Of a stretch of DNA of 34,376 nt, positions 4,726-6,077 are shown piece after piece. The DNA is from Clostridia bacterium (lineage in GTDB: Bacteria > Bacillota > Clostridia > UBA1212 > UBA1255). The stretch covers positions 1 through 34,376 of the forward strand of contig JAGBGO010000030.1 of assembly GCA_017935905.1 (NCBI GenBank). The letters are read 5' to 3'. The first letter of the stretch is position 1, and each line of letters opens with the position of its first letter. Made by a program: the position numbers and the translations under genes. The notes beneath the pieces are model-generated. The model was not told where the DNA came from, ran no database searches, and was given only the letters and a program-made list of their open reading frames with translations.

Positions 4726-4941
4726 TTATTTCACTCTTTTGGGATTGTTGGTACGACCTAAGATATAGTCGGTGGAAACTTTGTAAAAATCTGCTAATTT
4801 GATCAAATAATCCAGAGGGAGATTCTGCACGCCGCGCTCATAGCGAGAGTACACGGTTTGCTGAATATTTAACATTGCAGCAACATCTACTTGCGTTAAA
4901 TCGTGGTCTTCACGTAAATCTCGAAGGCGCTTAAAATGCAT
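4726..4941 (-). CDS. Small XRE-family helix-turn-helix repressor
   Basis: A 71-residue protein that is almost entirely one lambda-repressor-type HTH domain. LTQVDVAAMLNIQQTVYSRYERG (split here only as a description: helices 2-3 at about residues 15-37) is the recognition unit, and LPLDYLIKLADFYKVSTDYILGRT is the standard continuation of helices 4-5. It has a strong GGAGGG site 9-14 nt upstream of the ATG. No oligomerisation or effector domain is present. It faces away from the nuclease-like gene at 5298, with a 356-bp region of inverted and direct repeats between them, so autoregulation and control of that divergent gene are plausible. It points toward the metF promoter, which overlaps its 3' end. 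An antitoxin or phage-type regulator role cannot be separated from a housekeeping one by sequence. Confidence 0.9.
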   Translation of the reverse strand: MHFKRLRDLREDHDLTQVDVAAMLNIQQTVYSRYERGVQNLPLDYLIKLADFYKVSTDYILGRTNNPKRVK

Positions 4942-5049: not shown

Positions 5050-5089
5050 GGTGGGAGGTAAAATGGCGTAAAAATGAATTTACCTCACC
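5050..5089. repeat. Hairpin unit 1 of the GGGAGGT/ACCTCCC array
   Basis: GAGGTAAA (5055-5062) pairs perfectly with TTTACCTC (5079-5086) around a 16-nt loop; the outer GGT (5050-5052) can pair with ACC (5087-5089) past a 2-nt bulge. On the plus strand the left arm GGGAGGT is followed by an ATG-GCG-TAA mini-frame at 5063-5071. Confidence 0.75.
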
Positions 5090-5103
5090 CATTCTTGAAA
5101 AAA

Positions 5104-5141
5104 CGGGAGGTTTTTTTTGATTTAATCGGATTTACCTCCCG
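5104..5141. repeat. Hairpin unit 2 of the GGGAGGT/ACCTCCC array
   Basis: CGGGAGGT (5104-5111) pairs perfectly with ACCTCCCG (5134-5141) across a 22-nt loop. An alternative small hairpin is possible at 5099-5114, with A-rich and T-rich arms around the GGGAG core, so the element may have two conformations. Confidence 0.8.
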
Positions 5142-5165
5142 CGTACACCATCGATGCATCAAAAA

Positions 5166-5205
5166 GTGGGAGGTTAATTCATAAAAAAAGCATTTTACCT
5201 CCCGC
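5166..5205. repeat. Hairpin unit 3 of the GGGAGGT/ACCTCCC array
   Basis: GTGGGAGGT (5166-5174) pairs with ACCTCCCGC (5197-5205), 9 bp with one G-T wobble, across a 22-nt loop. The right flank TTTACCTCCCGCG matches unit 2 closely, so units 2 and 3 look like diverged copies with a 62-63 nt period. On the minus strand the right arm reads GGGAGGTAAA then an ATG opening a 4-codon frame. Confidence 0.8.
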
Positions 5206-5220
5206 GCACCTGCCGAAATA

Positions 5221-5257
5221 AATTTTGGGAAATATATTCACAAAATTCGGGAAATAT
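5221..5257. repeat. 15-bp imperfect direct repeat upstream of the nuclease-like gene
   Basis: AATTTTGGGAAATAT (5221-5235) and AAATTCGGGAAATAT (5243-5257) are direct repeats with a 22-bp start-to-start distance, about two helical turns. The position just upstream of a possible -10 for the rightward gene suggests an operator, with the adjacent XRE protein the obvious candidate ligand; this is inference. Confidence 0.6.
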
Positions 5258-5297: not shown

Positions 5298-6077
5298 ATG
5301 TATTACCAAAAAATGAAAGAAGAAAGAAATCGATTACGGCAAGCCATTCGTCATTGTGATGAATTGTTGCAAACGCTTCCGGAGGGAACGCTTTATTGCG
5401 TACAAGATGGAAATCGGGAGAAATGGTATCACAAAATTGATGGTAAGGAGAAATATATTCCGAAAGCGAATCAATTACAAGCGGCGCGGCTTGCGTACAA
5501 ACGCTATTTAATTGCACAAAAGAAAGACTTAAAGCGGGAACTGTGTGCTGTAGATGCCTTTTTGGAAAAATATCCGCAGGAATATGAAGCGCAAACGTTC
5601 ATGGAGGACCATCGATACCAACCGCTGATTCAAGTGTTTCTGTCTCCACGTAACGAGGTGCTCAAAAGGTGGGCGGAAGAACCTTATGAGCAAAATCCAT
5701 ATAAACCGGAAGGGAAGATCCATCGCATTTATCCGGGGCTTTCCGTACGATCTAAAGCAGAAGCGATGATTGCTTCTCGATTACATAGTTATCAGATTCC
5801 GTTTCGCTATGAGTGTATCATGTATTTAGGCGGGAAAGCGGTTTATCCGGATTTCACGATTCGCCATCCGGAAACAGGCGAACTTTACTACTGGGAGCAT
5901 TTAGGGCTTTTAGAGGATCCGGCATACAGTCAGAGGGCCGGGGAGAAAATCACACAATATGCAAACGCCGGATTCTACGTAAATCGAAATCTGATTCTTA
6001 CCGATGAAACGCGACGTCATCCTTTAACCTTGGATGAAATCGACAAGGTGATTGGGGACTATTTTTTGTGTGCGTAG
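5298..6077 (+). CDS. Candidate PD-(D/E)XK nuclease-like protein of unknown function
   Basis: A 259-residue protein starting at the ATG at 5298, chosen because AAAGGGGGG lies 8-17 nt upstream; the in-frame ATG at 5256 has no such site and lies in the repeat region. Residues 1-95 are charged and helical (probable coiled coil). The C-terminal half has the order expected of a PD-(D/E)XK-type fold: E155 in VRSKAEAMIA, P184-D185 in VYPDFTI, E200-H201 in YYWEHLG, then K217. I remember similar uncharacterised proteins from clostridial genomes (RSK-E ... PDF ... WEH pattern), but know of no assigned function. There is no helicase, methylase or transposase partner nearby. It lies between an XRE gene and polC, with a structured intergenic region upstream. 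Nuclease activity is inferred only from the residue pattern. Confidence 0.85.
   Translation: MYYQKMKEERNRLRQAIRHCDELLQTLPEGTLYCVQDGNREKWYHKIDGKEKYIPKANQLQAARLAYKRYLIAQKKDLKRELCAVDAFLEKYPQEYEAQTFMEDHRYQPLIQVFLSPRNEVLKRWAEEPYEQNPYKPEGKIHRIYPGLSVRSKAEAMIASRLHSYQIPFRYECIMYLGGKAVYPDFTIRHPETGELYYWEHLGLLEDPAYSQRAGEKITQYANAGFYVNRNLILTDETRRHPLTLDEIDKVIGDYFLCA

Follow-up and report, generated by a model that had tools for sequence, protein, structure and literature searches.

The described system that comes closest to the locus found in the window, as we call the whole 34,376-nt stretch of DNA that was analysed, is REP/RAYT. As described in three papers (PMC2817692, PMC8266576, PMC3733652), it comprises extragenic palindromes, a cognate gene beside its own palindromes and dispersed gene-less copies, often downstream of coding regions; the gene evolves faster than its neighbours, and palindrome and protein coevolve. 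These traits recur in the system reported here. The same papers describe TnpA-REP as acting on single-stranded REP (PMC8266576) and REP copy number as usually over 100 per genome (PMC2817692). Here, in contrast, the enzyme has a PD-(D/E)XK fold, whereas that of REP/RAYT is a HUH (Y1) tyrosine transposase (a Pfam scan of the window protein reported neither a Y1 transposase nor any significant family); the arrays consist mostly of 3-5 phased palindromes with long, freely drifting loops; their phasing points to duplex DNA, as against the single-stranded REP of those accounts; and the copy numbers found are low, with about 18 arrays in the window genome by a pattern search confined to four arm classes. 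With close agreement in the traits apart from enzyme and array form, the system is, by this comparison, best regarded as an analogue of REP/RAYT and not as a member.

The window is contig C62 of a 1.88-Mb draft genome (G000) that is 92% complete. The gene order at the locus is metF (- strand), a small XRE gene (- strand), the array, a gene for a 259-aa protein and a DNA polymerase III alpha gene (Table 1). An earlier, sequence-only reading had described three tandem hairpins with GGGAGGT/ACCTCCC arms, upstream of a candidate nuclease gene and divergent from an XRE gene, and these points held up. By direct reading, GAGGT occurs at 5055, 5107 and 5170 and ACCTC at 5082, 5134 and 5197; each of the three units is thus a 32-nt GAGGT-N22-ACCTC with arms of 7-9 bp, and starts are 52 and 63 apart. 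The left arm is GGGAGGT in 3/3 units; units 2 and 3 have ACCTCCC as right arm, and unit 1 has the imperfect ACCTCAC. The start codon of the gene downstream is the ATG at 5298, and the encoded protein has a predicted nuclease fold (see below). The XRE gene is real; it recurs beside metF at the syntenic locus of a congener (C62/C202), with 84.5% identity. It was set aside as a candidate partner in the system: among the nuclease loci, read unsystematically for it, it was noticed at C62/C202 only, where it is conserved together with metF.

Table 1. Features of the array locus in the window
Feature	Position	Strand	Remarks
Whole tripartite 'master' array	5050..5205		Adjoins nuclease gene
Palindrome unit 1, GGGAGGT...ACCTCAC	5053..5088		Right half-site imperfect; same class at G000:C7, G000:C77
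Palindrome unit 2, GGGAGGT...ACCTCCC	5105..5140		52 bp after unit 1
Palindrome unit 3, GGGAGGT...ACCTCCC	5168..5203		63 bp after unit 2
Two GGGAAATA boxes	5227..5256	+	Just 5' of nuclease-like gene; possible operator or promoter element
Nuclease-like gene, 259 aa, start ATG 5298	5298..6077	+	N-terminal 1-95 and C-terminal 141-259 domains
XRE gene	4726-4941	-	HTH_3, E 1.8e-15

Searching the whole 34-kb window with a generic finder that calls at least two same-arm palindromes (thresholds fixed after the first loci had been seen) returned the array as the single place, against none in 20 shuffled windows. The pattern GGGAGGT..ACCTC had 14 matches on both strands of the 1.88-Mb genome, versus 0 for a reversed-pattern control. 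Judged by these shuffled and reversed controls, the array is not a product of chance. RNA folding also beat that of shuffled sequences (single units, either strand, z -2.7 to -4.3; whole + strand array, z -7.8); this is not telling, since any inverted repeat would give it.

Pfam, NCBIfam and PHROGs gave no meaningful family for the window protein, and Pfam and PDB sequence searches gave no significant match to the PD-(D/E)XK nucleases I-Bth0305I, Bax1, TnsA, Hjc or XisH. An AlphaFold model was built from 8 sequences, including viral PDC-S68 relatives, with C-terminal pLDDT mostly 80-88. In this model residues 141-259 are predicted to adopt the PD-(D/E)XK fold, with VIA-align Z-scores of 9.9 for I-Bth0305I, an EDxHD homing endonuclease (92 residues, rmsd 2.8), 9.0 for Bax1, 8.0 for TnsA, 6.8 for Hjc and 6.4 for XisH. 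Foldseek alone returned no match to the model at E <= 0.001; a single-sequence AlphaFold model was discarded as poor (pLDDT 50), and a PDB search with it yielded nothing. E155 and D185 are invariant, and E200 is kept in at least 90%, among 45 aligned homologues. The canonical (D/E)xK lysine is replaced, within a WEH motif, which counts against the predicted nuclease activity. Residues 1-95 are predicted to form a helix/three-strand/helix arrangement and are a candidate arm-recognition module; matches of this domain to SMC, MukB and prefoldin coiled coils were set aside as short, high-rmsd or generic.

The five nucleases share the fold of residues 141-259 and differ from the window protein in the N-terminal domain and in that the latter is encoded by a stand-alone gene accompanied by arrays. 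The likeness to TnsA extends to Tn7, an end of which carries several spaced TnsB protein sites in about 150 bp; here, however, the sites are palindromic and there is one gene, with no DDE transposase or TnsC at the loci read. PADLOC models of PDC-S68, a candidate system with a large helicase-nuclease, match residues 132-255 (E 2.6e-27) at the C-terminal end of the models. About 120 C-terminal residues are homologous, and there are viral relatives of that kind, but PDC-S68 has about 1,200 aa, as compared with 259 aa and no helicase part here. A phage or viral origin was considered and rejected: the array consensus gave only 2 chance-like viral contigs, and the viral relatives of the protein were PDC-S68 helicase-nucleases only.

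The window protein has 8 matches in its own genome and 9 in G001, the single congener that was searched; across the class, a homologue at E <= 1e-15 is found in 23/391 genomes, often in several copies. The survey set comprised 110 distinct homologues from fetched loci (profile of alignment A1; weaker-match loci L064-L070 left out), and 109 of them had at least 200 nt upstream, the one shorter case being excluded. The sequence-only reading had proposed looking for similar arrays ahead of homologues of the gene at 5298. At least two exact same-arm palindromes, often 3 to 5, occur within 420 nt upstream in 48 of the 109, against a shuffled expectation of 0.0 (20 shuffles each). By this strict exact 6-mer test 61/109 lack an upstream array, which counts against the association, although some degenerate arrays (L072, L106) are among them, and several carry an array downstream or on both sides (L053, L056, L057, L059, L185). 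In a control with natural sequence, 6 of the 239 remaining 420-nt tiles from these loci contained arrays, as did 5 of 49 downstream stretches. Ten of these 11 adjoin homologues that have no upstream array (L053, L056, L057, L059, L185, L187), and are therefore better taken as widening the association to the other flank of the gene than as background; the remaining one prolongs the upstream array of L231.

The arms vary from gene to gene (GGATGCT, GGACACA, CGGTAGC, TTGGGCA and GGGTACC at other paralogues). At the syntenic locus of the congener, the same intergenic region holds three palindromes with 52/62 spacing and arms GGGTA..TACCC. A search with the GGGTA-arm pattern uncovered more arrays in the window genome and congener (GGGTACA, spacing 53/73; GGGTA); in 54 other relatives it gave 1 to 4 matches in 10, not above the control pattern. 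TACGTS arrays are present in G055, G206, G246 and G399, all of which have TACGTS genes, and neither array nor gene of this type was found in G366. A GGGAGGT consensus scan of 84,980 species genomes, a set that may omit the window genome, gave 17 stretches that on reading resemble coding sequence or unrelated repeats, so this version of the array is not widespread. Palindromes in a G048 HydG leader and at G000:C11 were judged chance.

A second type of box is found nearer to the genes. GGGAAAT/ATTTCCC lies within 160 nt upstream in 25/110 homologues and at -420..-260 in 3. The GGGAAATA box stands near the gene, and a TTTCCCGGGAAA-like palindrome version was seen in 7 homologues; the box may be an operator or promoter part shared by the whole family. 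Two family genes, L108 (G000:C38) and L121 (G001:C78), have a TTTCCCGGGAAA-like box and no recognisable upstream array, and are possibly members that lost their arrays.

Unit-to-unit distances cluster at 51-54, 61-65, 72-76, 83-86, 94-96 and 104 bp; outside these clusters there are four values of 40-48 bp and a single one of 108 bp. For 69 spacings, each distinct spacing being entered once per locus, the resultant length R was 0.765 at 10.5 bp (phase 1 degree). Among periods from 8 to 14 the best was 10.55, and 0/100,000 uniform draws scored as high, a nominal figure that overstates the case because the loci are partly dependent. The pattern of about 10.5 bp holds across many unrelated arm sequences. 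Judged from sequence, spacings at multiples of 10.5 bp mean that the units of an array would occupy one face of duplex DNA.

Arm identity follows protein identity: the same arms were found in 5/5 pairs of homologues at 80% protein identity or more, in 1/4 at 60-80% and in 4/910 below 60%. When arms are shared they are better preserved than their surroundings, with 36/36 positions kept versus 47% of the remaining array in L141/L219, 47/48 versus 76% in L221/L139, 42/42 versus 91% in L214/L139, 48/54 versus 58% in L138/L210 and 36/36 versus 36% in L180/L177; these pairs were selected for shared arms, hence partly by choice, and it is the contrast over all half-sites that counts. The two protein domains were compared in 15 hand-picked pairs. 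Where arms have switched (10 pairs, one of them marked as uncertain), identity is 21-59% over the N-terminal 95 residues and 66-85% over the C-terminal domain, while in 4 of the 5 same-arm pairs compared the N-terminus is 84-90% identical. Since the N-terminus has diverged and the nuclease domain is kept where arms have switched, it is probably this N-terminal stretch that reads the arms. Counting against this, L180/L177 share arms despite 57% N-terminal identity, and a 6-mer is common to both members in 4/910 distant pairs. Between the two species, identity of the family gene is 56-66% in four syntenic sets (C62, C12, C83, C38), as against 78-96% for its neighbours; at the window locus the figures are 58.7% for the family gene versus 84.5-84.9% for its neighbours. 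For C35/C196, a pair with arms kept, the family gene is 86% identical.

Gene-less arrays with arms of these kinds (solo arrays) also occur in intergenic regions of the window genome and of its congener. The match of the window genome's solo arrays to their masters is confined to the array, at 60-70%. Two of the window type, G000:C7:52215-52366 and G000:C77:31003-31153 (the latter on the opposite strand), have three units each with 52/63 spacing and match the window array over the array alone, with about 60% identity. They share its arms and have different loops; the sequence-only reading had noted kept arms and differing loops among the three units of the window. Neither contig C7 nor contig C77 yielded a copy of the 259-aa gene, and the C77 array sits between two convergent gene ends. 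Locus-specific arms, solo copies and the change of arms with the protein all lie beyond what that reading saw.

Solo arrays can change arms in the same way as their masters. In the solo C32 of the window genome and its orthologue C79 of the congener, 6/6 half-sites differ (GGGTAC to GGACA), and 73/124 non-arm positions are kept, including a 15-nt linker (CTTTTTTGCGTTTTC); the orthologous master nuclease loci C12/C45 show the same GGGTAC/GGACA difference. Arrays are pure in this respect: eight GGGTAC arrays have 46/48 expected half-sites and 0 GGACA, and five GGACA arrays have 30/30 and 0 GGGTAC. Against joint change count the congener solos C42 and C127, which keep GGGTACA though the orthologous masters are now GGACACA, and C31, which keeps GGAGGT though its orthologous master is now GGGTA. 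Solo arrays of the GGGTAC and GGACA types occur in both genomes, and the window genome, with six GGACA array places, yielded no GGACA master (completeness of the genomes is about 90%). The solos that do not follow could be accounted for by contigs that are missing, or by a paralogue of relaxed preference (GGRYACA fits both arms). At one other orthologous intergenic site, C67/C58, the arms are GGGTAAA versus GGACACA, with an alignment weaker than that of C32/C79; C213a/C71 and C147/C77 are too diverged for a call. Orthologous solos are otherwise 82% (C16/C42) and 76% (C57/C127) identical between species, with arms largely intact.

One array appears to have been copied without its gene. In genus g37, the solo G246:C4 and the array beside the G246:C17 gene align over 192 columns with 83% identity; the match starts in the linker before the second unit and runs to 3 nt beyond the final palindrome, short of the ribosome-binding site. 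No family homologue was found at G246:C4 or at nine other solo loci (together eight places, with flanks of at most 1.5 kb). A difference in presence was also seen between the congeners: the array at G001:C130 occupies 157 bp, versus 4 bp at the equivalent site of the window genome. It may represent either an insertion or a deletion; no target-site duplication was found at C130.

We think it rather probable that gene and arrays form a two-part element, a partnership like that of REP and RAYT built on an unrelated nuclease. The array would provide the protein of the adjoining gene with a group of sites in double-stranded DNA, and the N-terminal domain of each family protein would read its own arm sequence, two subunits filling both inverted half-sites of one palindrome. 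With palindromes spaced by 4, 5, 6, 7 or more turns of the helix, the bound dimers would be aligned on one DNA face and could form a nucleoprotein complex, bringing the C-terminal PD-(D/E)XK nuclease domain into position. This complex would probably also control the gene's own promoter, and regulation by the same protein alongside mobility is quite possible. Solo arrays with the same arms would be non-autonomous copies, recognised in trans and spread by cutting followed by repair or copying. That the protein binds the arms, that its nuclease is active and that the nuclease drives copying is what we infer from these patterns.

A different reading takes the arrays as operators, the protein as an autorepressor and the solos as a small regulon, the nuclease domain being degenerate or acting elsewhere, for example in phage defence; we consider it unlikely. 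Arrays do lie just upstream of the gene, yet some are downstream of nuclease genes. The solo C32/C79 stands in front of a gene, whereas several solos lie between convergent gene ends (L006, L111, L117, L134), and a stop codon falls within 30 nt of the array edge in 11 of the 20 solo loci examined (simple ORF calls). Helical phasing is typical of cooperative repressors, and the conserved GGGAAATA box close to the gene start is a further point in favour; neither the invariance of E155 and D185 in the 45 aligned proteins nor the array copied without its gene fits this reading.

It is quite improbable that the arrays are instead host-selected chromosome sites (for segregation, looping, fork arrest or insulation) and the protein a site-binding factor. 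Orthologous solos do persist between species with arms largely intact and change in situ, and solos occur in all intergenic contexts. However, each genome has several independent arm classes, each in its own small number, arms and protein turn over fast, congeners differ by presence or absence, and the nuclease domain retains its conserved acids. Hardly credible is the type III toxin-antitoxin or other structured repeat RNA, with the hairpins as RNA antitoxin or guide for the nuclease: tandem repeats ahead of a nuclease-like gene recall ToxIN and single units fold better than shuffles, but Rfam gave no match, no terminator-like site was seen from the array to the gene, the loops are unrelated and unconserved while arm letters are common to all units, which pairing alone would not require, the units are spaced in helical turns of DNA, solos exist, in convergent regions and in either order relative to their neighbours, and the protein has another fold, with no ToxN/AbiQ-type match in Pfam, NCBIfam or PADLOC. 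The sequence-only reading, which had seen the protein as larger than and unlike ToxN-type toxins, had offered such an RNA and protein-binding palindromes side by side; the first option is not borne out, and the second is the one that the sequences favour.

No description of a system like the two-part element was found in the literature, as represented by open-access papers and abstracts. We see an even chance that it constitutes an undescribed class of selfish or domesticated DNA, in which a PD-(D/E)XK family has its own phased arrays, mobilised gene-less copies and a specificity that changes jointly, as an independently evolved duplex-DNA counterpart of REP/RAYT. If true, it would be a new kind of two-part genome element and a natural record of dozens of co-switched protein/DNA-site pairs. 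It would open the questions of how DNA recognition is re-programmed in a nuclease family, with many paired examples of N-terminal 95 residues and 7-bp arms, and of the means by which short extragenic repeats can spread and be maintained when no classical transposase is present.

Several individual arrays have features of their own. The array of L231 (G267:C1:68500-70500) has a 42-44 bp spacing, about four helical turns, among the shortest steps. A-tracts recur in mid-loop and mid-linker in the G000 and G001 arrays, for example in CTTTTTTGCGTTTTC, and would add phased bends. The nuclease gene of L185 (G115:C5) has arrays with GTCCGT/ACGGAC arms on both sides, like a gene bounded by array ends, and at G055:C13 (L138/L258) TACGTC arrays lie upstream and ~2 kb downstream of the nuclease gene, again like array-end boundaries. 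At L166 (G001:C79), reading by eye revealed a second array, with about four palindromes, downstream of a rubrerythrin-like gene; its GGTCGT..ACGACC arms are unlike those of any master found.
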